In this document: piece after piece, positions 15,068 through 43,245 of the stretch
How the letters are laid out: every line of letters starts with the position of its first letter
Position numbering within the stretch: position 1 is the stretch's first letter
Origin: Diacronema lutheri
Taxonomy: Eukaryota; Haptophyta; Pavlovophyceae; Pavlovales; Pavlovaceae
NCBI GenBank assembly: GCA_019448385.1
Contig: JAGTXO010000064.1
Coordinates: forward strand, 62,001-126,000
DNA length: 64,000 bases
Direction of reading: 5' to 3'
Program-made: the position numbers and the translations under genes
The notes under the pieces: model-generated
Told to the model about the DNA's origin: nothing
Seen by the model: only the letters and a program-made list of their open reading frames with translations
The model's database searches: none

Positions 15068-15171
15068 CGGCGGCGCCTCAGAGCATGGCGCCCGCCCGCT
15101 CGAGCCGGACCTCCGCGCAGCCGGACTCGCCCCGCCCCGGGCTGCTCTGGCTGGGCGACGTCGTGCGCGCC

Positions 15172-20975: not shown

Positions 20976-21014
<39 letters not shown>

Positions 21015-21229: not shown

Positions 21230-22012
21230 CTGGACGTCGAGCGTGTGCGCCTTGTCCGCACGTGTGCACTCACGTGCGTCTGCGGCGATCTGCCCGGCGT
21301 AGTAGTCCGCGCGCGCGGGAGCCGCGTCGGCAGTAGGAGCAGGATAACGTACTTGCGCCTGACGAGGACGGCGAGAAGTGCGGCTTTTCGCTCGGGGTCT
21401 ACCATGCCGCCGAGGTTGGCGCTGGCGCGCGTGAGGCAGTCGGAGCGCGCTGGGCCCGGGTTGAAGGCCTCACCCCGGGGGACGGGAGGATTCAAGGCGC
21501 CGAGCCGCTGCGGGTGCGGCGGGAGGCCCCGGGCGGGTGTGCTAATGCGGCTCGATGGCCGCCTGCCGGGGGGGGGGGGGGGGGGAGGGGGGGGGGGGGG
21601 GGGGGGGGGGCGTTGGGCCGCCCGCGGAAACGGAGGTGAGCGTGTGGGAGCGGCGCGCGTCGGCGCGCGCGGCTGGCGTGCAGCACGGATAAGTCTTGTG
21701 TGGACTTCGCGGGGCGGATCCCGGTGCAGGGATTGCCGACGTAGGCCGCGAGCGCGAGCAGGGCGGGGATGAAGACGGATGATGGGGTTGGGGCCAAGGC
21801 CGCCGCACCCGCAGCTATCACGGTGGCAGCGACCGCCACGGTCAGTGCGAGGCTCGCGTGGCCGCTGCGCGGGCAGCTCGCCCGCCAGGTCCAGGAGGGC
21901 CGGCCTGCGGCCTCAGTGCCCAGCGTTGGGCATGTCAGCGTCTGCGTCTGCGGGCCCGCCACTGCGATGGCGCATTGAGCCTGGCGCACCAAAACGCAAT
22001 CGGTCCGCCGAT

Positions 22013-22054
<42 letters not shown>

Positions 22055-23961
22055 CGAGGCGTGCGCGGGGGCTTGGGGTGGGCTCCGGGTGCCGGCGCTG
22101 TGCCAGCGGCGGGCTTGGTTGACGCCGTCTCGCCGGGGCCCTTGCGCCTTGCGGCGCGAGCGTCGCGGAGGGGCGTCGGCTGCGCTGGCTCCGCGTCGGC
22201 GGTGGCGTGGGGCAGGCTCTTGTGGAGGGCGGAGCGCTCGCGCACGAGTCGGTTGCCAAGGCGGGCTGTCTGCGTGCCGTTGGGCTGCGCTTGGGCAGGT
22301 AGGACCTGCGGCCTCGGGGGCGGGCGGGTTTTCGTGTTGGGCCAGGCGGCAACGCGCACCGGCCGTGTTCGCGGCCGGCAGGCGGACGTCCGCAGCGGGG
22401 CGGAGAATGCGGGTGAAGCGCTTGCACGGGCGCGGTTCGCACCTGGCGGCCAGGCGATCACGAACCGTTGGGTCGCCGGGCTGTTTGGTGGAGCCGAGGG
22501 CAGCAAGGATAGCGAGCTTGGCCGCCTCATCGGTGACGAGCGGCACTGTTGCCCAGCTCTGTACCTCGAAGCCCTGGATGTGCAGGCGTCGGGGAAGTTC
22601 CCGGCAGCGTCGCCTGCGTCCGTCGAGAGGCGGACCGAAGTCGCGCCCGTGCCCCCGTTGGCGACACCGAGCTCTCGCTCGTTCACACCGGCCCGCCGAC
22701 GCGGGCGCGTGGTGCGCGCGCGTTGGGTGCGTGTCTGCCTCGAGCAGCGTGCCCAGTCGCAGTGTGGGCGCGTGTCCGTCTGCCTCAAAACGCCACGTGG
22801 AGGGGAAGGCGCGGGGCGGGCTCGCCGAGGAGGTGCCGCCGCTCGCTGCCACCCGGCGCGGGCTCGGGGCAGCCGTCTTCGGGTGCCGCGCTCTTCGCGC
22901 CATGCACGAACGTTCCGCCGCGCTCGCAGCGCGCGAGCGCACACACAGAGCGCGCGGCGACCCCGGCGGGGGCAGTGCGTCCCGGTGGCACTCGCGGGCG
23001 CGCGCCTGGCCTGGGCGCAGCTGGGCGCGTTGCCGCCCGCGCAGCGAGCCGCCCGCGCGCCTCGCCGCGCGCGCGCTTCGTCGCACGCGTGCGCCCTGCA
23101 TGCACGCGCATAGCGCGCGGCGGCTCGGCGCAGTGCAAGGCAGAGCGTGCTGCAACGGTTGCGAGGGCGCGCACGCGCGGCGCGGCGCGCCCCTGTGTGG
23201 TCGCCTGCGCGCGGCGCGTGGTCCGGACGCAGCTCGGTGGCGTGATGCCGTTCGTGCAACACAGTGCGCGTGAGAGCCGCACGTGCACACCTGCAGTGCA
23301 ACGCGGCATTGCGCGCGTTGCGTGGGCGGAGCGCGGCTGGATGTGCTTGAGGTCGCGCAGCATGCCGCGCGCCGCGCGCTGTGCGGCGCAGCGAGTCGGC
23401 CATGCCCCTGGTCCTCGTCTCCGGGGGGGGGGGGGGGGGGGGTGGTGGTGGCAACCAGGATCCGCCAGCGCGTGGTGGGCGCCGTCCAACTCCCAGCCAG
23501 GATGCGCCCCGTTCTTCCCCGACACTCTCCGTCCAAACCCGCCGCCCAGCCTGCCGCCGCACCCGCCGCCAACGCCGCCGCGCACCCATCCGCCGAGCTC
23601 ACCTCGCGCGCGCTCGCGCTCACGCTGCGCGACGAGGCTGCGCAGGCCGGCGCGCGGCCGTGCAGAGCAGCGCAGGCCGGCGCGCGGCCGCGCGCGCGCG
23701 CTCACGTTGCGGCCGCGCAGCGAGCTTTCGCCGCGTCGCAGCCCCTCCGAGCAGCCACGATGCACGCCCCCGGAGGACGTTGGCCGCGCTCGGAGGCCGC
23801 GCTCGGGCGCGCAAAGAGAGGCGGCGCGGGCAAACGAGTAGGCTCGGCGCGCTGGCGGGTCCTGGTTGTGGGAGAGCGGGGCATTCTCCAGGGCATCATG
23901 TAAATTCTCCCAAGTATCATCCGGGCCGCCATCCGGACACTGACGTGCCCACAGTCTGCAG
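21230..23961. other. Degenerate region with minus-strand protein-like fragments
   Basis: Poly-G runs at about 21571-21610, 22015-22054 and 23426-23442 divide it. Minus-strand fragments look coding but do not join: ASANLGGMVDPERKAALLAV (about 21380-21460), a hydrophobic stretch LALTVAVAATVIAAGAAALA (about 21790-21860), and GFEVQSWATVPLVTDEAAKL (about 22500-22590), which continues in another frame with AGVNERELGVANGGTGATSV (about 22620-22700). Frame changes without splice signals suggest old pseudogenes or mobile-element debris. No family was recognised. Confidence 0.4.
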
Positions 23962-26900
23962 ATGGAGGACTCCGTGAAGGACGCTTTGCCCGGCGGGCGG
24001 GGCGGCTCGGACAGTTTCTCGCTGGCCCTCAGCACCATTCTGTCGCCGGGAGATACCCACCCCCACGTGGTCCCATCCACTTGCCTCATCGCCCTGCTGC
24101 GTTACGCGGATTTCGGCACGAGCAGGGTTAGGGTGGGCGACACGGGGTGCTCGCAGCATGCGCTCAAGGTGGCGCTGCGCAACCTGCGCAAAGCATGCGC
24201 GGATGCGGACCGGTTTGGGCAGGTGCTCGTGGTCGTGCTACCGCTCTGCCTCCGCGCGTCCAGCGGCCTCGTGCACTGGACGGCGGCGTACCTGCTCCTC
24301 GCGCCGCCCGCGCAGCGCGGCGCGCCGCCCGGCGCCGCGCTCGCCCTGCTCGCCGATTCGCGCACCTTGGGCAACGGCGAATCGGCGTACGCCACGGCGG
24401 CCGGCGTGCTCATCAAGAAGCTTGCGCAGCGCATCGGCAGAACAGCGCCGCCCATCGATGCCTTCAAGGCGCCCCCGCAGAGTGGGGCCGCGTGTTGCTT
24501 CGCCGCGGCAACAGTCGCGGCCGAGGTCGTGGCGAGCGCATCGACGCTCTACGGCCGCCGCGCGAGTGTCCTTGTCGACATCAAGAAGGCTTTGGACGCG
24601 CGCCTCGCGCGCCTCACGACGGCCGCGTACGAGGAGACCCGCGCGCGCACGCTCCGCGCCGCCATCGGCGCTCTGCTCGGCGACCGCGCCAGGCGCTTCG
24701 GCCCGTTCACCCGCGAGGCCGCGCGGCTCGCCGAGGCCGCGCGGCTCGCCGAGGCGTGCGATGCCAGTGTCGGCGGATCCGCGCCCGACGGGCTGCTGCA
24801 GGCCGTCGAGGCGGCGCTGCGCGCGCCCGACGACCGCATCGCACGCACGGCCGCGCTCGACGCGCTCACGGGCGCTGCAGGCCGCGCGCTGTCGACGGCG
24901 GCCAGGCCGCGCGGCGCGGCGGCGCCAAGGCCGCCGTCGCGAGCGCCACCGCCGCGTGCGCCGCAGCGGCGCGCCGCCTCGGCGTGGGGGCCCCGACCAT
25001 TCAGCAGCCTCGGCGGGGGCGAGGGCGACGGGGACGATGGCGACGCCACCACCGCTGACGACGGGGAGGGCGCGGAGGACGGGGACGACGACCCCGCGGG
25101 CGCGGCGGCTGCGGCGGTGGCGACGGGCACGGCGGCGACGAGCGCGGTGGCGGCGGGCGCGGCGCCAACCTCGCCGGCGGCGGCGGACGGCGGTGGCTCG
25201 GCGCCGCTCGAACGCCGCTGCGTCTACACTGCGCCTGATGAGGGCGACGCGGACGCGCGCGTGTACGACGCCAAGGACCCCGAGCAGCTAAAAGCGGGCA
25301 GGGCGCGGCTACGGGCGAACAGCGGGCGCGCGCCCGCCGTGGTCGACACGCTTTTCGCGCACGCGACGGGCACGATCGTCACGCGGCAGCGCACGGAGGG
25401 CGTGACCGGCGCGGGCATGCACCACCTCGCCGCCCCGACGCAGGGCGCGGGGTACGGTACCGTCGTGCGGGCCGAGCTGGGCGAGCCCGGCTTCGCGGGG
25501 ACGACATGGCACATGACGTCGGGCGTGGAGAACCAGCCGCGCGCGGTACGAGCGGCCGCGCGCGCGTACGCGCACGACGGCTGGGGCGGCGTGTACAATG
25601 CGCACGAGGACTTTGCCGCCTTCGAGGGCTTGCCGCGGCTCGCCGCGCCCGAATCGCTCGCGGCCATCGCCGGCGGGTCGGCGGACGCGGTGTTCTGCTG
25701 GCGGTCCGGCCGGTCCGTCATCGGCGAGGTGACGACGGTTCACTTCAATGGCGACCGCGCCGCCGCCATCGACCACGCGCGGGCGCTGCGCGTCAGGCCC
25801 GATTGGCGCTCGCAGCCCAGGATCTACGAGGCGGCGTGCGGCGCGGAGGGCACGGTGCTGCTCGTGTGGGTCGTGCCCGACCGTCACAAGAACCCGCGGC
25901 TGGACTGGGCGCCGATTCTCGTCGTGATCCACCTGCCCGCCGACCCCGACTGGCTCGCGCGCGCCACGCCGGCGATCGCGAAGGCGCGGCGCGAGGTCGA
26001 GGACGGACGCGCGCGCGCGGAGGCGCGCGGCGTGCCGCAGCACCTCGCCTACACGCTGAGCCCACGCTTCCGAGGCACCGCGCCGCGCGGAGCCGCGCGC
26101 GTGCCGCCGCGCCTCGGCGCGAGCGACGCGCGCGAGGCGCGCGCGCTCGCGGCGCTCGAGCCGGCGCTCATGTTCGCGCCGGCCTGGCGGCGCGCGGTGC
26201 GCGCGGCGAGCCGCGCCCCCGGCAGTGGCGCCGCGGCCGTCGAGCGCGCGCTCGCGCGCCTGCACAACGCGCTCGAGCCCGATGACGAGAGCGCGCCCGA
26301 GTCGACGCGCGTCGCGCCGCTCGCCGCCGCGCTCGAGCAGTCGGCGGGCTGGCCGGCGGGCACGGCGCGCATGGCGGCAAGCGTGACCAAGGGCCCCGGC
26401 GTCGGAGATGGCGCAGGTGGCGACGAAGTGACCAAAGTGGAGGAAACGGCGAAGACGAGCGGCGACGGCTGCACCGGCACGCCTCCTCTGCGCCCGGCCG
26501 CGCGCGCGGCCGGCGCGGCGGACGACGGAGGGGCGGCGGTCGTGGCGGGCGTCGAGGGCGAGCGCGACGCACTCGCCAAGACGGGTGCCGGCGGCTGCGA
26601 CGACGACGCTCGCGAGCCGCTGTCGGCCGGCAAGCCCGGCGCACTCGCCGCCGCGGCGACCGTCGGGGGTCTCGGCGAGCTCGTCGGCAGCCTATGCGCG
26701 TGGCTGGCGCGCGGCGCGGCTGGCGGCGCCATCGCGGCCATCTCCCCCGGGACGGCCGCGCGCGGAGCAAACGGCACGCCGCAGCGCGCCGAGCCGCCGG
26801 CCGCCGGCGATCCCGTCGCTCCGCACGCGCGCGTCGCCGCTGCGGCGCCCTTGGCGGGCAGCGCGGCGGCGCCGTCGTCGGCCGCGCGCGACGCGCAGCG

Positions 26901-29900
26901 CGGCGTCGCGGGATTCGACGCGGCCGCGCACGCGCACGCGCGCGACGGCAGGCGGGCGGCACGGCGGATGCGCGAGCAGGAGGGGGCGGTGCACAGGGCC
27001 TTCCGCATGTCCCTCTGGCGCGACGCGACGTTTGTCGAGTTCGTTGAGAAGCTGCGCCCCGACGGCGGCGCGCAGCTGCTCGCGCGCGAGCCCACGCGGC
27101 GCGCGGCGGCGGTGCTGTGCGAGCTCGCGCGCGGCCGCGACGGCGCGAGCGGCGCGGCCGGGCTGCTGCACGAGATGAGAGCCGCCGATGCGCGCGCGCG
27201 CGAGGCCGCCAAAGCGGCGGAGGCAGCGCAGCTTGCGCACGGGACGCTGCGCATCGTGGCAACCGTGGCGCTGGGCGGTGCGGTCTTCGCCGGCATGTCA
27301 GCGCTGGTCGTTGCTTGCGCGGCGCGCACGGCGACCGGTGCGCTTTTTGGGGCCCGCCGCCCGCGGGCGGCCGCGCGCGGAGCCGACGACGCGCTCGGCA
27401 CGCTGCAGCGCGCCAAGCCGCCGCCCGCCGACAAGGGCAAGCGCAGGCGCGCCAGAGCCAACGACGACCCCGTCGACGCGGCGCGCAAGGCCGTGGGCAA
27501 GGCGGAGGGCAACTGCCGCAAGGCAGCCCGCCGGCTGCACCTCGCTGCACTGGGCGAGGAGGAGGCGCAGCAGCGCGTGCTCGACGCCGAGGCGGCGGAG
27601 CAGCTGGCGCGCTCGCGCGAGCCGGCCGGCGGCTGGGTAGGCAGCGCGCGCGCGCGCGCGCGCGCGCGCCCCGCCGCGCGCGCGCCCGTCGATTGGCGTG
27701 CGCGCAGCGCAGAACGGCGCGCCAGCTCCGTCACCTGCGCGCCGCCGCGCCCGTGCCCCTCGCGCGCAGGGGCGCCCTGCGGACCTGCGGCTGCAACAGG
27801 CGCACTTTGGCATGCGCGAAGATGCCGACGCGGATGTGCGCCGCGCGCACGAGGCGCTGCGCCGGGCGAGAGAGGGTGTGGCGTGCGCCAAGGCCAGCGT
27901 GCGGCAGATGGAGGCGGCGTTGCTCAACGCGACGCGCTGCGCCACCGCGGTGCTCGCGCCGCGTGGCGTGCCGGAGGGTGACGAGCAGGCCGCGGCGAGA
28001 GAGCAGGCGGCGCTGGACCGGGAGGCGCCGCCGGCCGCGCAACGCGCGGCGCCGACGGCGCGCTCGCCCTCGGAGCCGCCGTCCGAGTGGGGCCCGCCAG
28101 CGGTCGGCCGGCGCCCGACGCCGCGTGCACTGTCGCACGCCGCGGGTCGCGGGGACGACAACCCGTTTGCGCCGCTCGCAACCGTCAGCGGCGATTGGTC
28201 GCCCACGCCGAGCTCGCGCTCGCCGTCCTCGCCGCCGCGGCAGCCGCCGTCCGACCGCCGCAGCGCGCAGCGTCGCAGCGCGCGCGCGCGGCCGCCGAGG
28301 CCGACCGTTTCGCCCGAGGACGCGCTCGCAGCCGAGCGCCAGGCGCGCGCGCTGTCGGAGCAGGCGGAGCAGAGGCGCGCCAAAAAGGCCGCCGCCAAGG
28401 CCGCGCGCCGCGCCGCGCGCGCCGCCGACAAGCGGACGGCGCGCGTCGTCCACGCGTGCGTAAGCGCCGCCTTGCGGCGCGTCTGCACGAGCGTCGCCAC
28501 GGGCACGCCGCTCGCCGTGCTCCGCGAGCGCGCCGAGGGGCCGCGCGCGCCGAAGCCCGCGCCCGCGCCGCCACGCCGCGCAGCGGACGGCGGCCGCGCG
28601 CTCCGCCACGCGCGCCGTGCGGCCGCCGCGGCGGCGGAGCGCGAGGCGGCGGTGGCGGCCGACGCCGACGGGCGGTTCGAGCGGCAGCCCTCCGCCGCCC
28701 GGTTCGACGGCGGCGATGGCGGCGGAGGCGGCCACGTCGAGGCGAGCGCGCGACCGCGCGCCGGCGAGGCCGGCGAGGCTGGCGCGCACGGCGCGCCTGG
28801 CGCAGCGGGGACCCCGGCGGCGTCGCTCGCGTCGCGCAGCCCGTGTGATGCGCGCCGCACGGCACGCCTCCCGCACGCACGCGCCGCAGCCACCTGCGCA
28901 CGCAACGGCGGCTGGGGTGGCAACGTCGGCGGCGACGTGTGCGGCGGTTGTTTCGGCGGCGGCGGCGTCCGTCGCGACGCCTGCGGCGGCGGCGACGCCA
29001 CCTGCGGCTGCGGCGATGGCGGCGTCGGTGCTGGCGCTGGCGAGGCCCCTGCACACGGTGCGCCGGCGCGCGCGACGGCGTCGCGCTTGCTGCGCTTGCT
29101 CGGCGCGCCACGCGCCGTGCTCGGTGCGATGGCGCACGCCGCGGCCGTGTTGGCGCGCGGCGAGGCCGCAGCCGTCGCTGGCGTGCGCGCCGCCGCGCGC
29201 GCCGTGCGGCGCGCGCGCCGCCGAGCGCCTCGCGCGCGCCGCACGGCTGCGCGGCGGGCTCGCGGCCCGCCGATGCGCGACGTCGACGGCGCCCTGCGGC
29301 CCTCGCCGTCCTGGTTGCGCACACGCCTCGTCTGCGGCCGGCGCCTCGCGCCTCTGCGCCGCGCGGGCGCGCGCCCGCCGCCCGCACACGCCGCGCCGAG
29401 TTCCCGCGCGCGCGCTGCGCAACCCGACAGCGACGCGCCGGCGTGCGCGCCGCGGCGCTCGGCGCCTGTCGGTGCGCCGCCGCGCGCGCGTGGCCTGCGC
29501 GCGGCGCGCGCACGGCGCTTCCTCGACGTCGCCGGCCGCGCGGCGCGGAGCGCGCGCCTCGGCGCGCGCATCACGCGCCAGCGCACGCCGGGTTCGCCAT
29601 CGGAGCCCTGCACGGCCGAGAGCGGCGACGGCGCGGGCGCCGGCGGCGTCGGCGCGGCGGCGCCTGGCGCGGCGACGATGCGCGCCACCGGCGCGCGCGC
29701 AGCGCGCGCTGCGGCGGCGGCGGTCGGTGGCGCCTCGCGTCTCGCGCGCCGCGCGATGGCAAGCGCCGCCGCCGCTGCCACCTCCATCGCCGGCGCTGCC
29801 GCCTCGACCGTCGCCGCCGCCGCCGTTGCCATCGGCGCGGCCGTCACGTCACCGGCGTTCGCCGCGGCGCGCGGCATGGCGGCCGCATGCGTCGCTGCCT

Positions 29901-32217
29901 GCGCCCGCCCCACCGCCGCGCAGGCGGCCGCGTCGCGCGCGCTCGGCGCGCTCTTCGTGCTCGTCGACGCGGCCGACGCGGCGGGCGACAGCGACGCCGC
30001 GCTCGGCGCGCTCGCGGCCGCGGTCGACGCGACGGAGCTGCGCCCGCCCCCGGCCTTTTGGCGCGCGGGCCGCGCCGCGGCGTACGCACCGCGTCCGCCG
30101 CCCCTCGACTCGGCGCGGCCGCGCTACAACCGGCGCGCGCGCGCACCTAGCCCTCCCGTCGCGGCCGCGCGGCGCAATCTCGCGCGCGCGGTGCGCGAGC
30201 TCACGCGCGCCGCGCGCGCTGAGCGCGAGCGCGCGCCGGCGCCGCGCGGCGCGCGCGGCGGCGTGCTCCACGCGCTGCGCGCGTCGCTCCCCGTGCACGC
30301 GCGTGCCGCGCTCGGCACGGACGCGGAGCTGCGCGCGGACATCGCCGCGTTCGCGCGCGCGCGCCGCGAGCTGCACAGCCTCACCGACGCCGAGGTGGCG
30401 GCGCTCGCGCGCCCGGACGGGCCGCCGCTGCCCGTGCGGCTCGCGTGCACGGCGGTCGCGCGCGCGCGCGGCGTGACCGTGCTGCTCGACATCGTGCCGC
30501 GCGGCGGCGGCGCGCCCGAGCGGCTCGTGTGCCGCGCCCGTCGCCGCGGCGCCGCCACGCGCACGCCACGGCCGACAGCCGCCGTTATCGCGCGCGCGCC
30601 TTGCATAGCGGCGCGCGTTGGCCACACTGAGCCGGCGCGCGCGTGCGCGGGCGGATCGATCGGGGTCGCGCGCCTCCGTTCAGCGCGCCGCCGCTCTTGG
30701 CGTGGGGCGCGGCTCGACGTGCACACCCGCGAGCGGCTGGCCACACCGGTGCCAGGCCACGTCGTGGCCTGCGCCGCCGCCTCGGCCATCGGCGCGTGCG
30801 TCGCTCGCGCGCGGCTTGGGCTTGCACGGCTGGCGCGCGCGTGGCCCTGCGCCTCCGCTCCACTGGCCGCTGCTGCTGTCGCCTTCGCGCCTGCCGCCGA
30901 CGGTGTTTTCTGCGCCCCGCTGGGCGCTCCTGCATCCGCCTTCGCGCCTGCCGCCGACGGTGTTTTCCCCGCCGCACTAGCCGCTGCTGCATCCGCCTTC
31001 GCGCCTGCCGCCGATTTTCCCGCCCCACTAGTTGCTCCTGCATTCGCCTCCGCGCCTGCCACCGACGGCGTTTTCCCCGCCCCACTAGCCGCTGCCGCTG
31101 CCGCGTCCGCGCCCGCCGCCGCGGGCGCGTCTTCCGCCCCACCAGCCATCGCCGCCGCGCCCGCCGCCAACGCGCGCACCGCCAACGTGCCCGTTGCCAA
31201 CGAGGCTACCGCCACCGAACCAGCCGCCCTTGAGCTTCCCCTCCAACCCGCCAACTCGGCGCTGCTTGCGTGGGCGGGCGACGCGGCTGCGCGCCGGCTG
31301 GCCGCCGCCGCCGCGAGCGCCGGCCTCCCGCAGGCAGAGGTGGAGCGCATCGCCAGCGGCGACATGCTCGCCTCAACCGTCGACGCGTGCTGCGAGGTCG
31401 TGCTGCGCGTGCACGGGCAGGCCGGCGGCGGGCATGTCTGCCACGTGCCGCTCGCCGCGCAACCCGCGGTGTTTCAGGACGACGCCGAGCGCGCCGCGCT
31501 GCTGCACCGCCTGCGCAGCGAGGCGACAACGCAGGCTGTCATCGGCGTGTGGAGCCCGTCGGACGAGCGCGGCGGCGCGGGCGGTGACGACGGCGCGCAG
31601 CTCGCCTCCGGCCATTTCACCGCGTTGCGCCTTGTGCGCGTCGCGCGCGCGGGCGAGCATCGCTACGACGCGGTGCTCGTCGACACGCTCGCGTCGCCCT
31701 GCAGGCAGGCGCTCATGCTCGCCAAGGCGATAACTGCCACGCTGCACGCGGCGGGTCTCGACATTTCGCGCGTGCGCCGCGCGCTGCTGCTCAACGAGGC
31801 GGCGCAGCGTGGCGCGACGTGCGGCCTCGCGATAGTGGGCGCGCTCAACGACGCGCTCGCCGCGGCGGGCTGCTCGTCCGCGCCGCGCACGTTCAGCGTG
31901 GCGGACATGTACGCTGTCGGCGAGCGCCTCCGCGTCGCGCTGACCGGCGCGGCCAGCGATCGTGCGCCGGGCGGCGTCTGCGCGGTCACGAGCGCGGTGC
32001 GTGGCGGGGGCAGCCCCGATCGCGCCGAAACGCCGCCGCAGACGCGCGGCGCCAAGGCCGCCGCTGGCGTCACCGCCGCCGCCACCGCCGCCGCCACGCC
32101 GCCGCCGCCCGCGCTGGGCGCCGCCGCCGCCGCCACCGCCGCCGCCGCCGCTGCTGCCGCCGCCGTGGCCGCGCCGCCACCGCCGCCACCGCCGCCGCCG
32201 GCCGGCGACGCGGGCGA

Positions 32218-32293
<76 letters not shown>

Positions 32294-35200
32294 GCCGCGC
32301 GCACGTTCTTGAAGCTCGCGCCCAGGGCGCGCGCGGCCGCCTCGGCGCGTGAGGCGTTGCGCGCCGCGTGTGCGCGCGCGGACGCGGCGGCGTCGTCACA
32401 CGCGTCGGCGCCGCACGCGCCCGCCGGTGCGCGCCGCCGGCGGCGCGCGGGCGCAGGCGAGCTGGCGCTCGCGGCTGCGCGCGCGCTCGCCTCGACGGAG
32501 CACGGCGATTTGACGGACGACGCGCTCGAGGCCGCCGTCGAGCAGGAGCTGGGCGACGAGCGCGGCCAACTGCTGCTGTGCACGCGGGGCGCAGCGGCGC
32601 AAAGGCCCGCGCTTTGCCGGCTCCTGAAGCACGCGTGCGCGTCGGCGCGCGCGGCGAAGCGCGCGCAATTCACGGTGTTCGTCGTGCGCGCGCCCACGCG
32701 CGGCGAGCGGGGGGGCGCCGCCGCGAGGCGCGTGGACTCGGTGGTCGAGCTGTCGTGCGCGCTGCACGAGAAGGCGGGCGCGCTCGGCGGCCTCCAGCGC
32801 GTCTGTGTGCGTGGCTTCGCCCTCGAGCGCCGCCGGACACTCGACGCTGGCGCCGAGGCCGGCGCGTCCGCCATCGGCCAGGACGAGCAGGTCGAGGCAG
32901 AGGCGGGCGAGGCGTGCGTCGCCGGCGTGACGATGGCCAAGCAGCTGCGTCAGTTTGCCGAGCAAGCTGCCCGCGACGACGTGCTCTTCCACGTCGCCGT
33001 GTCCGAGGCCGACGCCCACGCCCGGCTGGCGCGCGTTGCGGGTGACGATGTCGGCGCGTACAGCGTCGTGCTCGCAGTCGCCGGGCTCGTCTGGCTGGCC
33101 AAGGCCGACGAGGTTGCGCCGGCGGCCGCCCAGCCCGCCGCCGTGCCGCCCGCCGCCCCGCCTGCTGCCGCCACGTCCGCCGACGCCGAGCGCGACGCCT
33201 CGCCTTCCGACCGCCTGCGCGCGCTGACGCTCGCCGTGCGAGTCGCGCTCGCGCGCGGCGTGCTGCGCCACCTCCTCGCCGACGCGTCGCCGGGCGCGTC
33301 CGCGACCGCTGGCGGTAGTTGCGCGACGCCCGTCGAGGCGGCCACGTCCGCCGCCGCGCCGCCCGCCACGGGCGTCGTGACGAGTGGCGTTGCGGCGGGC
33401 GCTGTGGCGGCCGCACCGGCTGCTGCGGGCGGTGCGATGGCGGGTGCATCGCCCATCACGCGGCCGGCGAAGCGCGCGCGGCGCACGCTCACCGCCGCTC
33501 CAGCCGCCTCGGCCGTTGCGGCCGCTGGAGGCGCACGCGCGGGCACACGCGGCGCGGCCGGCGCGCCTCGCGCGCGCGCCGCGCGCGCGCCGGCCGAGTA
33601 CGTCTGGCTTGCCATCGCGCGCCGGATGCTGGCGGCGCGACACGCGGCGGCCGCGGGCGGCGACTTTGTCGCGTCGTGCGTCGCCGCGATGCAGGCCGAG
33701 TACGGCGACGGCTGTGCCGTCGTCGTCGGCGACGCGCCTGATGACGCCTTGGTCGAGGCTGCGGCGGCGGCGCTGCTCGAGGGCAAGCACGCGGCGGTGA
33801 GCCTCGGCTGCGTCGACCGGCCGGCGGTGCTCGTCGTGCAGCGCGCCGTGGACGCGCCCACGTCGCGCGTGCACGGGTGGTGCGCGCACGCGGCGGGCGC
33901 CGCCGAGTTTGACGAGGGCGCCGCGCACGGCGTGTTCAACGCGATCGTCGAGCGCGCGTGGGCGCTGCGTCCGGACCCGGCCGACGGCAGCCCGCCGCCC
34001 ACGCGCACGTGGGAGGTCGAGCAAATCGCTGGCGACGCGCCCGACCAGGCGGGCGTGGCCGCGCTGCGCGTGCTCTACGCGCTCGTCGCGGCGCACGGCC
34101 GCTACCGCTCGGCCGCCGCGCTCTTTGGCGCGCTCGCGCAGCTGCACGCGCCCGACGCCGCCGGCGCGCGCGCGGAGGTCGTCGCGGCGGCGTGCGCGGT
34201 GCCGCCCGGCGCGCGGCCGGGCGCCGCGCCGGCGGCCGCGCGGGACGACGCGAGGGAGCGCGCATGGGACGGCGCTCAGATCGCCGCGCTCGCCGTCGGC
34301 GCGGACGCTGCGCGCAGGCGTGTCGCGCCCGTGCGCGCGCTCGTCGACGCGCTCGGCACGCCACCGACCTCGGCGATCACGGGCGGGCCGGCGGTCCGGC
34401 TCGCGGGCGCGGGCGACGGCGGCCACGGTGCACGGTGGGTGGGCGGGCAGGCGGCGACGCCCGCCGAGCAGCTGCCGAGGGAGCTGCTGCGCGCCTACCA
34501 CGAGGCGGTGCTGTGCGTCACGCCCGGCAGCCTCCAGCTCGGCCCGGCGGCGCTCGACGCGGTCACGCGGCCGCGCGAAAACGACACGCTGGAAGGCCTC
34601 CTCGCGCGCGTCAGCTGGCAGTGCGGCGCGAGGGCGAGCACGTGCGCCATGCTCGCCACGTTTTCCGAGCAGGCGGGCACCGGCTCGCGCGTCGCGCTCA
34701 AGGCCCTCCGCACGAGCTCCGACCTGGCCGGGCTGACGGCGGCTGCGGTCGGGCAGCAGGCGCCGCAGACGCCGCCGCCGCCGCTTCTCGTGATGCTCGG
34801 CCGCTGCCCCAGCCCGCTCGTCGGCGGCGGCCTCTTCCCGCCCGACCGCGCGACGGGCGAGCCGGCGGTGCACGCGGCGACGTCCGAGCTCGCCGTCGAG
34901 CTGCTGCGCGACGCGCGCGCGCTGGCCGGCACGGACGGGCGGCTCGTCGTGCTGTGCCTCGAGGCGTCCAACCCGCTCTGGTTCTGCCCCAAGGTGCGCG
35001 AGCTCGAGCTGCCGCGGACGCGGTCGGACGGCGTGCGCGCGTCCGGCTGCACCTGCCCTGCGACGTGCAGCGATGCGCGCGGCGCGGCGGGTGGCGCTGC
35101 CCGCGGCGCATCGACGCGGCCGGCGGCGCGCGCGATCAACAAGGCGGTGCTCGACCACTTCGTCGCGCTTTTCGGCCGCGAGGGCTTCGCGACCTTTGAG

Positions 35201-38200
35201 TTTGCGGGCGGCGGCGAGGCGAGCTGGCTGTGCGACAGCGCGGCCGGCACGACGACCGTCGCGGCGTGCGCGTCGCTGCCGCCGCGCATGGGCGATGGGC
35301 AGCTGGCCATCCGGCGGCACACGCTCGGCACGGGCGCCGACGCGCCGGCGCACGCCGTCGTCTCGCTCCGCGTCGCGCACGTGAGCCACGCCATCCGCCG
35401 CGCGGCGGACGACGGCGGCGCGCGCGCCGAGCGGATGGCGCGCGCCGCGCGCGCGTTCTGCGATGTGGCGGCCGCGCTGCGCGTCGACGCGATCCTGGCG
35501 GAGGTGCCCGAGGACCGCCCGACGGGCACGCCCTTCCTTGGCGGGCTGCTCAAATGTTGGGACAAACGCAACGGGAGCTGGACGGCGCCAGCCACGCTCG
35601 CGCTCGGAGACGTGCGCGAGGTGGCCAAGCGGACGGCCGACGCAGCGGCCGGCCGAGCGGACGAGGTCCCTGCGGCTGGCCGTCCGCAGGTCGCGGCGCG
35701 CGCGTGCGCTGGCGCGATTGGCGGCGGCGCGGGCGCGGCGGGCGCCTCGGACGCTGCGCCGCGTGCACTGGCGGGCGCGTCGGGTGCGCGCACGGACGGC
35801 GGCCCTGCCGACGCACCGCGCCAGCTGGAGAGCCGCTACGGCGAGGCGAGCAAGCTCGACCTACCCCAAGATTCCACTACGGGCCGCGTCCTCGACGCTC
35901 GCGAGGCCCAGGACCGCGCGCGCGTGCCTGCTGCGCCCGACGGCACAGCGCTGCGCCGCGTGCTCGACGCCGTCGGCGCGGGCGCGCCCGCGCAGCGCAG
36001 CCCGCGCTGGCACGACGAGCGATGGGAGGAGGTCACGGGCAGCAAGGTTGGCGACGTCGTGAACGACAACGCCGGCGTCGCGCACGAGACGCTCACCGAC
36101 GAGTACGTGCACCGGCGGCGGCGCGAGGTGCGGACCAAGGCGACGACCGCGGGCATCCTCGGCGAGGCCGTCGCGCTGCGCAAGCTGGCGGCCGCGTACG
36201 GCATCACCGTCGTGTGCAACCTGCCGATGGTGCGTGCGGACCCGCACGACAAGAGCGCGCCGTTCGCCTTCTCGCCGGACGGGCTCGCCATCCTCCCCGA
36301 AAACAACGAGCAGGTCCTCGTCGAGGTGAAGACGCTCACCAAGGCGGGCGCCACGGCGCACGAGGACGGGCCGCCGCAGCCGCACCGCGATCAGCTGCAG
36401 CTCGGCATGCACGTCCTCGGCGTGAGCAAAGCGCTCTACGTGCAGTACCTCAGGCACGAGGACCGGATCGTCGTGCACGTCGTGACGCGCGGCGCCGGCT
36501 GGCTTGCATTCGCGCAGCCGAGGGTGCAGGCCTTCTGGGCGCGCGTCGTCGAGCGGCGCGCGCGGCTCGAGCGCGCGCGCGCCGACCACCCGGCTGCGAG
36601 CCGGCGGCACCGGCGGCAGCAGACGCCGGCCGGGCCGCCGCTCGTGCTCGCGCTGGACGGGCGCATCCCCGCCGCGCGCGCCGCCGCGCTGCACGCCGTC
36701 GCGCACGGCACCGCGAGCGCGGCGGCGGTGACGGCGGCGGCGGCGACGGGCGACGCGACGGCGTTGCAAGACGCGATCGCGGCGCTGCGCGCGCCCGTCG
36801 GCAATGCGGCGATCGACAGCGCAGCGCGTGCGGAGCGCGCGGCCGTCGAGCGGGCGATCGCGTACCTCGGGCAGCCGGCGGGCGACGCCGCCGCCCGCGG
36901 CACGGCCGAGGCGGCCGAGGAGGAGAGGACGGTCGACGCCGACATCTGCGCGTTGCTGCACCAGCTCGGCGCGAGCGTGGCGCACGTGCACGTCGAGGAC
37001 GCGGATTGCGTCACGCGTGAGCACTGGGGCGAGGCGGTGCTCGCTGCAGCGGACGACCCGTCGAGCGCCCCCGCCATTTCGAGCGTCATCGTCGCGCACA
37101 TCGTGCGCCTCGCCGGCTTTGGCGTCGAGCTCCCGCAGTCGATTCGCGTCGCCCCCAGCACGGCCGACTGGCACGAGGGCTGGCTCGACGTGCAGTGCGT
37201 GCTGCTGCGCACGCGCCGGCGCGGGCGGCGCGACGACGACTTTGTGGCCGTCGTCAGGCGCGGTGGGCGCTGGTTTGCGTGCGAGCCCGGCCGCGCGCGG
37301 CGGCTGCAGTGGCGGTCGGTCCTACGCCGCGCGCGCGGCGGCGTCGACGGGACCGGCGAGGAGGCGTTCGCGATCGTCTACGTGCGGCGCGGCGACGCGG
37401 CCGGCGACGCGGCTGGCGACGCGCAGGCCGCACGGGCGCGCGGCGGGCGCGCGCGCAGGCGCACGCGCGGCGGCACGCGCAAGCGCAAGCGCGGCGCCTC
37501 CGCCGGGCTCGAGGCGGCCGCGCCCGCCGGCGCGCCGGCTGCCGCGCCCGCCGGCGCGCCGGCGGGCGCTGCTCACCGCCCGCCCGCCATGCGCGCCACG
37601 GTCGCCGCGCGCACCACGCGCTCTGTGACCGACGCGCTGCACTCGGCGCCTGCCGCCACGGTTGCACCTGTCTTCGACTGGCGCGCCGGCCGCCCGCCCC
37701 CCGCCGCTCGAGCCCGCCACCCGCGGCCGCGTGGGCGCGCGCCACCGGGCAAGGCCTGGGACAGCGTCTCGGGTGCGTGGGCGGACATGCCGACTGGTGC
37801 TGCCGTCGCCGCCGCGCCGCCGCCGCTGCCGCCCGCCGCCGCGCCGCCGCCCACCGCCGCGCCGCCGCCCGCCGCCGCGCCGCCGCCCGCCGTCGCGCCG
37901 CCGCCCGCCGCCGCGCCGCCGCCGCCGCCGCCACCGGCGGCGCTCAACCGCTGGCAGCACGTCGGCGCGGGCGGCAGCGCGGCGGGCCGGCGGCTCGCGG
38001 CCATCGCACGGCGGCAGCGCGGCGTGCGCGCGCCGCCGCCCACCGCGCGCTTCCTCGCCACGCTGCCGCCACCGCCACGCGACGGCCTCGCGCGCACGAG
38101 CAAGCAGGCGCGCGCGAGGCGCAACGCGGACGGACGGCCGGCGCACGCGCGCGCGGCCAACGCGCGCGCCTTCTACCGCGGCGTGGAGCTCGGCGTGCAC

Positions 38201-41200
38201 GCGACGCGCGCCATCGTCGACGCGCGCCACGCCGACCTGCCGCAGGCCGTCTTCGTGGCGGAGGCGCGGGCGATCGTCGCGCGCTCCGCCGGCGGCGGCG
38301 CGCTGCTCGCGCCGGACGACGTGCGCGACCTGTGCGACGCGCAGACGGACGCCGATCGCGCTGCGATCTGGGCGTCGGTGGGCGCGCACGAGGCGACGCG
38401 CATCTTCGCGCTCGTCACGCGCAACGCGAGCTTGGCGGGCGCGGCGCTGCTCGTGCTGCACACGCCGGCGGGCGCGCCGGCGCGCGCGCTCGGGCTCGTG
38501 GCGACGCGCTCGCGCGCGCCGTCGACGGGCGCGCCGCGCGACGCGCACAGGGCGCTGGTGCAGCGGTTGGACGTGCTGATGGACGCGATCGCCGCGGCGC
38601 GAGGCGCGTCGCCGCTCGAGCTCGAACACGCGCTCGCGCCCGAGCCGCAGAGCGCGTGCAACGCGCGTGCGGCCGCGCTGCTCTGCCTGCAGGCCGTCGC
38701 GGACGCGAGCGGCCGTCCCGCCGCTGAGGACGCGCTGGCCGCGCTCGACGACGCGCGCGGCATCGACCGGCACTGCCACGCCGTCCGGCAGCAGATCGAG
38801 GCGAAGCTCGCGTGGCGGCGCGCCGACGGCGCCGTCGGCGTTGACGGCGCCGACGGCGCGCCCGCGCTCGCGCCTGCCGCCGCACCGCCGGCGTGCGCGC
38901 CGGCGCACGCTGCCGGCGAGGCGGCGGTCGACCAGGCGATCGTCACGCGGGTGCGCGACGCGCTGCGCGCGTGGGCGACGACTGGCACCGCGCCCAGCGC
39001 GGCGGTGCTCGACGACGCCTGCGCCGCGTACACGGCCCGCGCACGCGCGCGCAAGGACGCGCGCACGGCGCTGGGCCCGACGCGCGCGGCCGAGCTGCTC
39101 GCCGCGGCCGCGCGCGGCGGAGCCGACGGGGCGGATGCCGCGCGCGCGCTGCTCGGCGGCACGCCGCGCCTGCTCGTCGTGCTCCTCTGCGTGCCCGTCG
39201 CCGCGCCGTCCGGCGAGCCGCCGCGCCCGGTCGGGCTGCTCGTCGCCGACCGGCCGACGGACGACTCGCGCCCGGCCGCGCTCGTGCGCTACGACTTTGC
39301 GCCGCTCGACGCGGACGTGGCCGTCGCGGTCGGCGCGCATGCCGTCGCGCTGGCCAGTGCGATCTGGCCGCTGCTCGCGGCCGAGGGGGAGCCGCGGCCA
39401 TCGCCCGTCGTGCGCTCGCAGCCGCGCGGCGGCGACGATGGCGCGTGTGCGCTCGCAACGTTCGCGTGCCTCGACGCGCTGATGACCGCCAGCGTCGGCG
39501 CGCACGGCCTCGCGGGCGGCGCGGGCATGCTGCCCGCGCTGGTCGCGCGAGGCGCCGCGGCCGCCCAGCGCGAGCGGCAGCTGCGCGCGGCCGCCGAGAG
39601 GCTGGGCGGCACGGTCGCTGGGTGGCCGGACACGGGCGCGAGCGCGGCGGGCGCGAGCGTCGACGAGGAGGCGCGCACGTACGAGGTCGAGGCGGTCGTC
39701 GACGAGCGCCGCAAGGCGGGCAAGAAGGTGACGTTCCAGTTCCGGATCAGGTGGCGGGGCTACGACGAGAGCGCCGACACGTGGGAGCCTGAGGCCAACG
39801 TGAGCAGCGACCTCGTCGCCCAGTTCCGCAAGACGCGCGACGAGCAGAAGCGGCGCGCGGGCGGATCGGGCAGCGGCAGCGGCGGCGCGGGCGCGGCGTC
39901 GGCATTGGCGTCGGCGCCGCTTCGCGCGCACGGCGAGTCGGGCGCCGCGGGCAAGCGCGCCGCGGCGGGTGCCGCCGCGAGCGCGCGCGACGCCGCGGGC
40001 GCGCGCGCGCCGAGCGTTCCCCGCGCGCGCGGCGTCGAGCGCGCGCGCGTGGACGAGCCCGCTGCGCCGAGCGCGCGCGCCGCCGGCGGCGCGACGGCGC
40101 GCACGCGCGGCAGCGTGCTCCCGGGCTTCGTGGTCAAGCGCTCGACGCTCAACGCGGGGCCGCAGGCGGTGACGGCGCAGCCCGGTGCGCGGAAGGAGCT
40201 GCGGCGCATCGCGGCGGCCGTGCACAGGCTCACGACACAGGCGTACCGCGTCATCAACAAGGTGGTGCGCGACGAGGCTGCGGTGGCGAGCGCGCAGGCC
40301 GTCGGCGCGGCGTCGGGCGGCCCGTCGACCAGCGTGCACACGTCGACCACGATGGACAAGGGATCCGTCCGTGCGATCTTCTCGGCCATCGGCTGGCACA
40401 AGGACGAGAGCACGTACGGTGCAGCGCCGCGAGGCAAGCCCGCCGAGCAAGCCGCCGCGCAGACCAAGGCGGCGACGGCGCGCGCCGTCGGCGAGATGGC
40501 CGAGGGCGTCCAGCCCGTCTGCGCGGTGGGCCTCACGGAGATCCTCGAGGCGGAGGCGACGCAGGTGTCCACCGCGTGCCTGATGCACCCATCGCGCGTC
40601 GTGAACGGGCTGCTCCGCGACGTCGTCCGCGCGGCAGTCGAGCGCGACGAGGCGCTCGTCGCGCTGCCCGAGATGCAGCGAAACGCGCGCGTGCGCGAGC
40701 TGTGCGAGCGGCTGCTGCGCGGCGACGTGGAGGGCGCGCGCGTCGGCTGCCCCGCCGCGCTCGACCGCCACCTGCCCGACATGGTCCTCCACAAGATCGA
40801 CTACAAGTGCACGCCCACGAAAAGGTGGAACTACGACCGGCACACGACGCGCTACTTCCTCGTGCAGATCCGCACCCTGCAGCACGTGGCCGAGGGGCAG
40901 GCGCTGCTCTGCCGGCTCGCGCACATCCACACGCAGCTGACCGGACGGCCGCCGCGGTACAATGTGGCGCCGCTGCGCACGCACAATGTGCGCGCGAGGC
41001 GTGGCTGCCGCTGCCGCCGCCGAGCGCCCAAGCGCGCGCGCCGCCGCCGTGCGCGCCGCCCCGCGGCCAGGTTGGTCACGCGCCCGCGCGCTCGCGCGCC
41101 GCGCGCTGCGCGCAGGTGCCGCGCAACGTGCGCCTCGCCGCGAGCGCCATCTGGGTGACGCTTTCGGATGACGAGCGCAAGGAGCTGCGCGCGCGGCTCA

Positions 41201-42840
41201 AGGCGCTGGACCTGCGCGACCACGATGGCGAGCCGATCAAGTGGACAGGCACAAACGGCAACACCCCGCCGATGTCGGACGTGCGCGTCAGGTACGCGGT
41301 CTTTGCGACGCGCTTCGACATCTCCAACCGCGTCTTCGACTACGCCGGGCGCGAGCGGCCGCCGGCCGATCTGCCGTGGCACGCGCGGCGCTCGTGGGTT
41401 GGCCTCGCGCCGCTGCCGCGCGTGCCGCTCCCGGGCCGGCAGCCCGTCAAGTCGGTGGTGACAGATGGCGTCGCCGTGCACGCCGTCGGGACCGTCCTCG
41501 TGCCGAAGGCGCAGGCGCCGGCCGGCGGCTCGGGCGTCCTGCACCGCTGGCGCCGGCCGGACGGGCGCATCGCCGTCGCGCTCGGCTCCGAGCTGCGGCG
41601 GGCGATCGACGTCGAGGCGGCGGTCGTCGTCGCGGCCGACCCGAACATGGGCAACATCACCACCTACTCTGCGCACGTCGGGCGGGCGGCCGTCTGGCGG
41701 CAGTTCACGCAGCGCGCGCGCGCGCGCGCCGCGGGCTTTGCGCGCGAGACGGCCAAGACCAACGCGGCGCGGCGGCGCGTGCGCACCGACGGGCGCGGCG
41801 AGGAGTTCAGCGTGGAGGCGGACGAGGCGCGGCTTGGCGAGGCGCACAGCGCCAAGGTGCTCGACGCGGGCAAATACATCGCCTTCCACCGCGAGAGCGC
41901 GCGGGTGCGCGAGCGCGCCGCCGAGCACGTGTACGACGCGCCGGCGCGCCGGAAGGAGCGCTGGCGGCGCGACAGCGGCGGGCGGTCCAACGCGGCGCGC
42001 GTCGCCGAGGCGCTCATCGCGGCGCACTGTGTCGACGGCGTGACGCGCGACCGGCTGCTCGTGTGCGTGGGCAAGTGGCTGCGCGACCACAAGGGCGCGC
42101 AGCCCAAGGGCGCGCCGCCCGCCTTCCAGGTGGGGCTGCTGCGCGAGCTGCGGCGGCGCGGCGTCGCGGCCGTCTTCGTGCCCGAGCCGTACACGTCGAT
42201 GCACTGCTCGATGCCGCGGCTCGCCAAGGGCGGCAGGCTGCAGCGCTGCGGCGCGGAGCTCGCGCAGAACCCGCGCCTGCCCGTGGCAAAGGGCGGCACG
42301 CGCACGGTGCACGCGCTCGTCATCTGCCCGGCGTGCAACGGCGGCAAGAAGCCCGTGCACCGCGACTACAACGCCGCGCGCAACATCTTCTACGACGTGC
42401 ACGACATGGCGGCGCACGCGGCCGGGCGCGACACCACGTCGACGCCTGAGCGCTTTGCCCTCGTGCTCGCCTGGTGGGCGCGCGGCGAGGTGTGGGAGCG
42501 TGAGGAGCGCATGGTGCACGGCGAGGGCGACGACTGCGACGACGAGTGCGACGGCGACGACGAGGGCGACGACGAGGGCGACGACGACGACGACGACGAT
42601 GGCAGCGGCGACGGCGGCGGCGGCGAGGGCGACGGCGACGGCGACGGCGACGGAGGCGGCGGCGGCGACGACGACGATGACGGCGGGGGAGGCGGCGGCG
42701 GCGACGGCGGTGGCGACGACGGCGGCGGGCGCGGCGGCGGTGGCGGCGGCGGCTCTCGCGCCCGCACCCCCGCCCGCGGAGCTGCCAGCGCCAGTGCCGG
42801 CGGCGGCAGCGCGCGCGGGCCGAAGCGCGGCCGGCGTTGA
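23962..42840 (+). CDS. Giant multi-domain protein: Ulp1-like proteases, YqaJ nuclease, chromodomain, Fanzor nuclease
   Basis: Exons 23962-27636, 27770-40987 and 41116-42840 (introns 133 and 128 bp, GT-AG, both phase 0) encode about 6,205 aa. Domains in order: Ulp1/C48-like protease 1 (residues about 80-200; His105, Asp132, Gln173, Cys178/179); Ala/Pro linker; TM helix near 1093-1115 and a coiled coil spanning intron 1; Arg/Ala-rich region; Ulp1-like protease 2 (about 2390-2620; His2507, Asp2530, Cys2576); poly-Ala near 2710; decayed protease-like modules; an uncharacterised Cys-containing block (about 3460-3850); YqaJ-type nuclease (about 3967-4160); Pro-rich linker; two more Cys-protease-like blocks; chromodomain (about 5194-5250); Fanzor nuclease (about 5360-6065); Asp/Gly-rich tail ending PKRGRR. 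It is probably a mobile-element or virus-derived protein. Undetected in-frame introns in the 13-kb exon, or more than one gene, remain possible. Confidence 0.75.
24200..24530 (+). other. Ulp1/C48-like cysteine protease domain 1 in the giant protein
   Basis: The order His (VHWTAAYLLL), Asp (LLADSRT), Gln (APPQSGAACC) and Cys fits the H-D-Q-C site of SUMO-protease-like C48 enzymes. The family includes domains carried by many eukaryotic DNA transposons. Identity between CysA (178) and CysB (179) as nucleophile cannot be decided. Confidence 0.6.
27637..27769 (+). other. Intron 1 of the giant gene
   Basis: It starts GTAGGCAGCG and ends CGCGCGCAG. It joins codon boundary to codon boundary and reconnects a coiled coil (GEEEAQQRVLDAEAAEQLAR to DLRLQQAHFGMREDADADVR) that otherwise stops in each frame. 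This supports splicing rather than a frameshift. Confidence 0.7.
31250..31910 (+). other. Ulp1/C48-like cysteine protease domain 2 in the giant protein
   Basis: HVCHVPLAAQ, then GHFTALRLVR (His), DAVLVDTL (Asp) and RGATCGLAIVGALNDAL (Cys) give the C48 order with the CG-x-x pattern of the nucleophile helix. The Gln of the oxyanion hole is replaced by Asn or lies at AAQRG. Confidence 0.62.
32219..32300 (+). repeat. GCC trinucleotide repeat coding poly-Ala
   Basis: About 25 consecutive Ala codons, nearly all GCC, inside the giant reading frame. The length is probably polymorphic. Confidence 0.9.
35995..36580 (+). other. YqaJ / lambda-exonuclease-type nuclease domain in the giant protein
   Basis: It begins SPRWHDERWEEVTGSKVG. 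A helix with ILGEAVALRKL (Glu about 4021) follows, then FSPDGLAIL (Asp about 4061), VLVEVKTL (Glu-x-Lys about 4076) and HRDQLQLGMHVLG with the trailing Gln. This is the complete PD-(D/E)xK signature of YqaJ viral recombinases, which resect DNA ends for strand annealing. All metal-binding positions are present, so activity is plausible. Confidence 0.82.
37030..37395 (+). other. USP-like C-terminal block in the giant protein
   Basis: DDFVAVVRRGGRWFACEPGR followed by FAIVYVRRGD resembles the His-box end of USP proteases (HYVAxVRRxGKWYxCDD then AYxLxYxR), but the His position is Asp and no Cys box is obvious before it. A decayed protease fold is inferred. Confidence 0.4.
39675..39845 (+). other. 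Chromodomain in the giant protein
   Basis: YEVEAVVDERR, FQFRIRWRGYDESADTWEPE and NVSSDLVAQF give the full chromodomain pattern, with aromatic cage positions Tyr (YEVE), Trp (IRWRGY) and the WEP motif. It probably reads methylated histone tails. Chromodomains in transposon proteins are known to steer integration to heterochromatin. Confidence 0.9.
40180..42430 (+). other. Fanzor (eukaryotic TnpB-like) RNA-guided nuclease domain
   Basis: After a helical N-terminal part, the RuvC-like core shows Asp5806 in VVVAADPNMGN, then about 180 residues later VPEPYTSMHC (Glu5988, Thr-Ser 5991-5992), a zinc site (Cys5995, Cys6009, CPAC 6035-6038) and HRDYNAARNI (Asp6048). This matches the published Fanzor signature D-x(125-275)-[TS][TS]xx-zinc finger-RD, with the relocated glutamate next to the TS pair instead of the TnpB position. 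The first zinc pair is widely spaced (13 residues). A 128-bp intron (40988-41115) splits the domain in phase 0. Confidence 0.82.
40988..41115 (+). other. Intron 2 of the giant gene
   Basis: It starts GTGCGCGCGAGG and ends CGCGCAG. Both flanks are codon boundaries and join VAPLRTHN to VPRNVRLAASAIW. Without it the Fanzor core lies in a different frame from the rest. Confidence 0.75.
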
Positions 42841-43245
42841 CGCACGGCCGAGCCGCGCAGCGGTCGACGCTTTGCGGGCTCTGCCCAGGTCGCGCGCGGC
42901 TGGCGACGCGTGCCGCGCGCGGCACGACCGTGCACGCCGCCACCCGTGGCCGAGCGCGCCGCACCAGCCGGCCCGCTCCAACCGCCGTGCGGATCACGGA
43001 CGCTCGCTACGGCTCGTCGGCGCGCGTCACCTGCGCCGGCGGCCACGGCGCCGTCTGCTCCGGCCTCGTCGCGAGCAGCCCGACCGCTGCTCGCCGCCCG
43101 CACGCCGCCGCAGCAACGCTGCGCGTCGTGCTCCCCCGCTCGCCAAACGCGAAGAGCTCCCTCACAAGGACGTCCTTCCGAACGGCCCGCGCTGCACTCG
43201 GGGCGCGATCGTGCCCCTGATCGGATTTGGCTTGACCATCTATAC
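42841..43245. other. 3' flank of the giant gene
   Basis: GC-rich and without coding support on either strand. In Fanzor and TnpB systems the guide RNA usually overlaps or follows the nuclease ORF up to the element end, so this stretch is a candidate, but no structure could be proven by eye. Confidence 0.3.

Follow-up and report, generated by a model that had tools for sequence, protein, structure and literature searches.

The giant gene that the earlier note had read from this stretch of the Diacronema lutheri genome lies inside a mobile element, as delimited by genome-wide comparison of copies, a setting that the note did not recognize. It is probably the principal gene of a family of giant DNA transposons that was recently active in this alga, and its product would combine a Fanzor nuclease with an exonuclease and a chromodomain; Fanzor and exonuclease would perhaps drive cut-and-copy maintenance of the element. 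The element is present in about two hundred copies per D. lutheri genome and is best read as a giant Fanzor transposon of a new type. If true, one gene of that copy number would encode a Fanzor together with a chromatin reader and an exonuclease of the recombination type, making cut-and-copy directly testable in a cultured alga, and the giant protein would stand out among natural RNA-guided nucleases by its size. Positions refer to the window, the whole stretch of 64,000 nucleotides that was analyzed (contig C8:62001-126000), and the features are collected in Table 1.

Table 1. Features of the element and of the predicted giant gene (window coordinates)
Feature	Position	Strand	Details and basis
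Whole mobile element	12204..43245	+	31,042 bp at most (~31.04 kb)
Perfect palindrome near 5' end	12251..12268	.	18 bp
PIF1-like helicase gene	15575..17979	+	PF05970 E 1.7e-15 and 1.5e-24, Pif1_2B E 4.5e-13
Ubiquitin-specific-protease-like frame	19162..20574	+	PF00443 E 3.6e-8; Cys and His boxes by eye
Frame 1 of giant gene	23962-27981	+	1339 aa; ORF list
Exon 1 (predicted)	23962..27636	+	1,225 aa; holds C48-like motif set by eye
Putative intron 1	27637..27712	+	76 nt, GT-AG, phase 0, GC-repeat
Frame 2 of giant gene	27698-41158	+	4486 aa; ORF list
Exon 2 (predicted)	27713..40987	+	4,425 aa, uninterrupted
C48-like segment	31244..32074	+	H 31613, D 31682, Q 31805, C 31820; motif by eye
YqaJ / lambda-exonuclease / RecE-like exonuclease domain	35984..36559	+	Profile matches
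Chromodomain	39680..39832	+	PF00385 E 5.6e-12, 45.8 bits, cut-off 25.1
Probable N-terminal half of Fanzor	40115..40987	+	Position and inspection by eye
Frame 3 of giant gene	40576-42840	+	754 aa; ORF list
Putative intron 2	40988..41115	+	128 nt, GT-AG; other donor/acceptor pairs fit too
Exon 3 (predicted)	41116..42840	+	Fanzor RuvC and TNB, then acidic/Gly tail
Predicted catalytic residues of Fanzor	D 41638, E 42184, D 42364	+	Alignment
TNB domain of Fanzor	42148-42387	+	PF07282 E 2.4e-6, 28.0 bits, cut-off 26.3
Hairpin-bearing 3' non-coding tail (candidate region for an omega RNA, the guide RNA)	42841..43245	+	Position

Extent, ends, and copies of the element

The assembly searched comprises 43,492,796 bases in 103 contigs. 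Exact 5' ends of the element occur at 181 places (94+87) in these 43.5 Mb and exact 3' ends at 210 places (113+97), with the reversed-pattern control giving 0 in both cases. End pairing used the listed places on contigs C1-C45, which hold 89 of the 181 5' ends and 99 of the 210 3' ends; a same-strand 3' end lies within 60 kb of 64 of these 89 5' ends, and the other 25 have no 3' partner there. The 64 paired-end elements, with a combined length of 1.80 Mb, fall into groups near 31.0 kb (29 elements), near 21.5 kb (12 elements), at 29.1-29.4 kb (8 elements), and at 26.0-26.9 kb (7 elements), with 2 near 30.5 kb and 6 others between 12.7 and 37.8 kb.

Copies fetched from contig interiors are 99.3-99.9% identical to the window over the pieces 19.15-29.17 kb and 39.15-43.25 kb and all end at 43244-43250 in window coordinates, the DNA beyond being unrelated; two copies at contig ends are 98.0 and 98.3% identical. 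This near-identity could come from a recent burst alone. Contigs C1, C5, C6, C10, and C12 have the 3' end pattern of the element no more than 4 bases from their start, presumably because the assembler breaks at repeats longer than the reads, and the element probably accounts for a number of contig breaks in the D. lutheri assembly.

The 5' boundary of the copies lies at about 12204 and reads TATA(N)GGCG, where N is mostly C or G, with the end placed one base later than in the window in 9 of 40 scored ends (40 scored of 288 candidates). The 3' end is CATCTATAC in 16 of the 20 fetched loci in which it was located, the terminal bases being CTATAC in these 16, CTATAA in 2, CTAACG in 1, and incomplete in 1. 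TATA is found at both ends in 10 of the 11 copies with both flanks read (the exception, C9:1127565, has a 3' end of TAAC), and none of the 11 has a flank string of more than 4 nt common to both sides; the outer bases CTATA/TATAC may be part of the target rather than of the element. Searches for inverted terminal repeats, and for a long repeat common to the first and last 500 bases, found neither. An empty site was sought via the 5' flank, itself the end of another repeat, and 9 other loci of that repeat did not show the target; the 3' flank belongs to a further repeat.

Gene model and domains of the predicted giant protein

The earlier note joined three reading frames through two phase-consistent introns. 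The frames are real, GT-AG pairs of matching phase are present at both junctions, and joining there gives 18,675 nt with no internal stop, encoding 6,224 aa; the pair chosen for intron 2 is one of several that fit, and this model of predicted splicing is plausible. A coding-score table follows frame 0 to ~27.6 kb, changes to frame 1 up to ~40.9-41.1 kb, and then returns to frame 0 until 42.6 kb, dipping near tandem repeats at 30.6-31.2 kb and in a few other places; it was trained partly on this region and is independent only at 28-31 kb and 41.1-42.6 kb.

Of the proposed fusion of Fanzor, YqaJ-type exonuclease, and chromodomain, the exonuclease, the chromodomain, and the probable N-terminal half of the Fanzor occupy one uninterrupted 4,486-codon frame, so that this part of the fusion needs no intron. 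No stop separates the Fanzor from the exonuclease through exon 2, and the RuvC half of the Fanzor, placed behind a single putative intron, needs that predicted intron to join the giant protein. The joining of the first 1.2 thousand residues, encoded by exon 1, is less sure, because the copy in the window needs intron 1 and a 21.6 kb variant is without exon 1. Among exon 1 matches genome-wide (150 scored of 186 candidates), ~110 of the 150 have by eye the same 1345-codon open frame, and the intron 1 sequence is identical to that of the window in all 4 fetched copies that cover it. In at least four copies the exon 1 and exonuclease matches lie in open frames of equal length (6136 aa in C11, 5746 in C48, 5733 in C75, and 5279 in C21) and so seem to be in one frame, the first junction apparently varying between copies.

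Linkage of exonuclease and Fanzor was tallied over 88 of 150 exonuclease rows (150 scored of 234 candidates) and 110 of 148 TNB rows (from a list of 150 scored of 306 candidates), the 38 TNB rows left out being mostly better-scoring rows of a second Fanzor family and diverged matches, along with a few rows of this family. Of the 88 exonuclease matches, 76 are followed at 6,233-6,263 bp by a tallied TNB match in the same orientation. The remaining 12, in these partial lists, are without a tallied partner and count against the fusion, and 34 of the 110 TNB rows are without a tallied exonuclease partner, which reflects partly gaps in the tally and partly, perhaps, copies that have no exonuclease.

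There is some chance, though not a large one, that the region instead holds three separate neighboring genes, one corresponding to exon 1, one to exon 2, and one for a Fanzor with its own start. The replacement of exon 1 in the 21.6 kb variant would fit such an arrangement, as would the short homologues (570, 527, and 425 aa), a weak point given that the searches admitted 0.55-1.75 times the query length. P0006, a gene model of exon 2 from a different D. lutheri assembly, is limited to 425 aa of that exon and was counted against the fusion, in a search whose length limits for a 251-aa query are such that the giant protein could not appear. P0005, a homologue of the Fanzor, begins close to the junction of exons 2 and 3 and was taken in favor of that junction, though its start may be only a mechanical ORF call. 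The separate genes are opposed by the probable Fanzor N-terminal half lying within exon 2 with no stop after the chromodomain, by the 284-nt overlap of frames 1 and 2, and by the at least four copies that seem to hold exon 1 and exonuclease in one frame.

The Fanzor, exonuclease, and chromodomain assignments are supported at the level of sequence. The profile search that had been proposed as a check places PF00385 and PF07282 above their cut-offs and PHROG 434 on the exonuclease, with PF09588 under its cut-off and no match for C48. The claim of a YqaJ-type exonuclease is borne out by the RecE-like PHROG 434 (E 5.9e-15, residues 2763-2954 of frame 2), the match to the lambda-exonuclease / RecE / YqaJ family extending over 192 residues; TIGR03033 (E 3e-5, 24.2 bits, cut-off 68.05) and Pfam PF09588 (YqaJ; E 0.031, 15 bits, cut-off 22) match below their curated cut-offs, and a PDB sequence search with the domain matched no exonuclease. 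Known members of this family are mostly phage or viral and paired with an annealing protein; in the annotation obtained here no such partner was noticed. The chromodomain, likewise confirmed, matches 58 distinct PDB sequences at E<=0.01, with a best value of 1.2e-11.

The Fanzor identity holds up on the TNB match (Table 1), on the published Fanzor motif, and on the D/E/D residues kept in a homologue of ~50% identity. The motif D-X(125,275)-[TS][TS]XX-[C4]-X(5,50)-RD is present in P0003 (the window), P0004, and P0005, its tail arising in 1 of 2000 shuffles, and the catalytic D, E, and D are invariant in a three-sequence alignment of the window, P0004, and P0005, the last being 46% identical in the search and 50% in the alignment. 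In one longer read-through frame the PF07282 match scores 25.4 bits, just below the cut-off of 26.3. The N-terminal half gives no match in profile scans, the Fanzor part scores 13.7 bits against the TnpB model NF040570 (cut-off 100), and its best match among PDB sequences is Cas12f1 (E 0.015), with no Fanzor chain listed. An AF2 model of the Fanzor built from three sequences has a pLDDT of 42, and a fold search with this model gave no meaningful PDB match. As in characterized Fanzors (available text of PMC10432273 and PMC11423790), the RuvC residues are D/E/D with the E just before the TNB zinc domain; unlike them, the Fanzor here would sit at the C-terminal end of a product predicted to have 6.2 thousand residues.

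The SUMO-type proteases of the earlier note were not upheld. The C48-like segment has residues in the order H-D-Q-C, which we take to be that of the Peptidase C48 (Ulp1/SENP) active site, and all four are kept in a diverged copy on contig C14 whose segment is 82% identical in protein. Pfam PF02902 (C48) has no match in the frames of the giant protein or elsewhere in the window and 9 matches genome-wide, none on contig C8. PDB sequence searches with the C48-like segments gave no support, and a two-sequence AlphaFold model of the segment was too poor, the fold search giving no support either, so that a SUMO protease is suggested by motifs only. True Peptidase C48 matches occur at C102:59161-60954 and C86:177693-178289 in open frames of 1460 and 1892 codons, which are perhaps other transposons.

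The C14 copy (21.57 kb) shares 12205-14581 with the window at 99.7% and 31242-43245 at 98.3%, has pieces of 16182-20979 at 90-96% (4-10% differences over most of 16.2-21.0 kb), and has 20980-31241, where the whole of exon 1 and the beginning of exon 2 lie, replaced by ~2.4 kb of other sequence. This mosaic divergence fits an exchange of sequence among copies such as would result from recombinational repair. Its giant frame has 4190 codons, and five indels in the aligned ORF together keep the frame intact. Between window and C14 copy, the coding frame has a pN/pS of 0.58 over 31242-32742 (Fisher p 0.005), compared with 1.36 and 1.04 in the other frames, and dN/dS over 31242-40987 is 0.70 compared with 1.11 and 1.00. 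Substitutions number 105 in 31242-32742 and only 48 from 32742 to 40987, with 6 differences in exon 3; beyond 32742 the ratio in 1.5-kb windows scatters from 0.17 to 4.2, with one undefined, selection being too weakly sampled where the C14 copy is so similar. That the frames arose by chance in 78-80% GC sequence can be given hardly any weight, since, although long shadow frames of up to 1220 aa run on the other strand, the 4486 stop-free codons compare with a maximum of 1727 in 200 Markov-1 sequences of the composition of that stretch, three domain assignments fall in frame, selection is frame-specific, and the domain matches refute chance for exons 2 and 3.

Mobility and the proposed action of the nuclease

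Six-frame Pfam scans of 12204-43245, run in pieces at E<=0.1, give no match to a transposase, a tyrosine or serine recombinase, an integrase, a polymerase (PolB included), a reverse transcriptase, or a capsid; such scans would miss a domain split by introns or foreign to Pfam. A Polinton/Maverick or LTR element was rejected on the lack of PolB, integrase, capsid, and reverse transcriptase in these scans and of LTRs. The element resembles giant eukaryotic transposons, as treated in the available text of a review (PMC6431247), in its length of tens of kb and its accessory enzymes, and differs in having no reverse transcriptase, DDE integrase, or PolB among its matches. No viral relatives were found among 16 candidate stretches, and no phage relatives were found. 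Upstream of the giant gene, the PIF1-like helicase is decayed and frame-broken, its motifs I and II lying in different frames with an identical break in the C14 and C17 copies, both of which have window positions 14581-16182 absent or rearranged; this broken frame was counted against the probable reading of the element. The ubiquitin-specific-protease-like frame comes next, before the giant gene.

In the probable account, splicing would join the three frames into one product, and RNA from the 3' end of the element would guide the Fanzor to sites beside a TATA-like motif, with cutting aimed especially at donor sites just vacated by the element. Resection of the ends by the exonuclease would then let the sister copy repair the gap and so bring the element back, a cut-and-copy maintenance of the kind proposed for TnpB, and the chromodomain would tether the giant protein to marked chromatin. 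An exonuclease of the recombination type fused to a Fanzor would fit such resection of breaks. The inserting enzyme would be either a helper acting in trans or a recombinase that escapes recognition in those large portions of the giant protein that carry no annotation. In the candidate guide-RNA region the folding z-score of 42841-43241 against shuffles is -0.69 and that of the last 200 nt is -1.70; the tail is not unusually structured by this comparison, which was counted against the guide-RNA reading, and Rfam gives no match above its gathering score within the window.

Published work provides partial parallels. Fanzor1 is a TnpB-like nuclease of eukaryotic DNA transposons, with three examples in green-algal Helitron2 elements and a description of Fanzor1 in Helitron2 elements of Chlamydomonas (Bao and Jurka 2013, available text of PMC3627910). 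The present element is like these in encoding a nuclease with the D-X-[TS][TS]XX-C4-RD motif within a eukaryotic DNA transposon, and unlike them in being 31 kb long with no recognized transposase; the words YqaJ, protease, and "fused" are absent from the main text of that paper. According to the available text of PMC10432273, what Fanzor does for eukaryotic transposons is still an open question, and its cutting at the sister chromosome could promote the spread of single-stranded DNA transposons, much as for TnpB. YqaJ, haptophyte words, and Diacronema are all absent from the main text of that paper and from that of PMC10711439. In the limited collection of literature searched, YqaJ and Fanzor occur together in no paper, Fanzor and a haptophyte word co-occur in one CRISPR review, and a single giant-virus paper combines at least 3 of YqaJ, PIF1, transposon, and Ulp1. 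The D. lutheri NIVA-4/92 genome is 73.25% GC (PMC8379373), and the main text of its paper contains no word in "transpos".

A possible though doubtful alternative to cut-and-copy maintenance by a Fanzor transposon is a tyrosine-recombinase (Crypton-like) element with the Fanzor as cargo, in which an unrecognized recombinase would insert by exchange at TATA. The TATA at both ends of 10 of the 11 copies with no longer shared flank string, and the lack of terminal inverted repeats, agree with such exchange, as tyrosine and serine recombinase transposons are without terminal inverted repeats and target site duplications and Cryptons have short terminal direct repeats (available text of PMC3627910). 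The two kinds of element are alike in these terminal features, but no tyrosine recombinase is recognized here, and the six-frame scans, with neither a tyrosine nor a serine recombinase, weigh against this alternative.

A relative of Helitron or Helitron2 without Rep, a rolling-circle element moved in trans as proposed for the Chlamydomonas Fanzor1 elements, is unlikely. It would account for the PIF1-like helicase and for a palindrome or hairpin near both ends, the occurrence of Fanzor1 in Helitrons is published (available text of PMC3627910), and the genome has one Helitron_like_N place. The Helitron Rep (PF14214) is not in the element, however, and that single place in the assembly (C63:35738-36019, E 8.3e-23) was rejected as a helper, since the 3 kb read there match the window neither in DNA nor in protein. 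In addition, the ends miss the Helitron1 rule (5' TC, 3' CTRR) except for one 3' end with CTAA, and full 5' ends are nearly as common as 3' ends (181 vs 210), unlike one-ended products. More improbable still is that the giant Fanzor protein is itself the mobility enzyme, combining an RNA-guided cut and resection with chromodomain steering and copying at TATA in place of a classical transposase, which would make the element a new class of transposon.

Flanking repeats and neighboring families

Positions 12054-12203 and 43246-43406, which flank the element, are parts of two other repeat families. The 5' flank has 47 genome matches and the 200-base 3' flank 46, each with its own place included, 10 of the latter being only to a 45-base piece of the second Fanzor family. 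Further downstream, 43401-43573 is 98% identical to part of this second family of Fanzor elements, which belongs to the same genome, and 45-base pieces of it occur 3.6-4.6 kb from 9 listed second-family matches. The second family was rejected as the same element, its TNB part being 29% identical and the 7.2 kb examined having no exonuclease match. Positions 44401-44550 are 88% identical in DNA to 35801-35952, part of exon 2 next to the exonuclease domain, of which they are a diverged remnant.

Repeats of other kinds occur inside and outside the element. At 14203-15090, within it, nested inverted and direct repeats of ~86-104 bp carry tgtagggtgtaggatg motifs and are partly absent or rearranged in the C14 copy. 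Outside it, a tandem array with periods of 22/44/66 bp occupies 4710-5304, and a 35-bp tandem repeat at 6815-7137 comprises 9.2 perfect copies.
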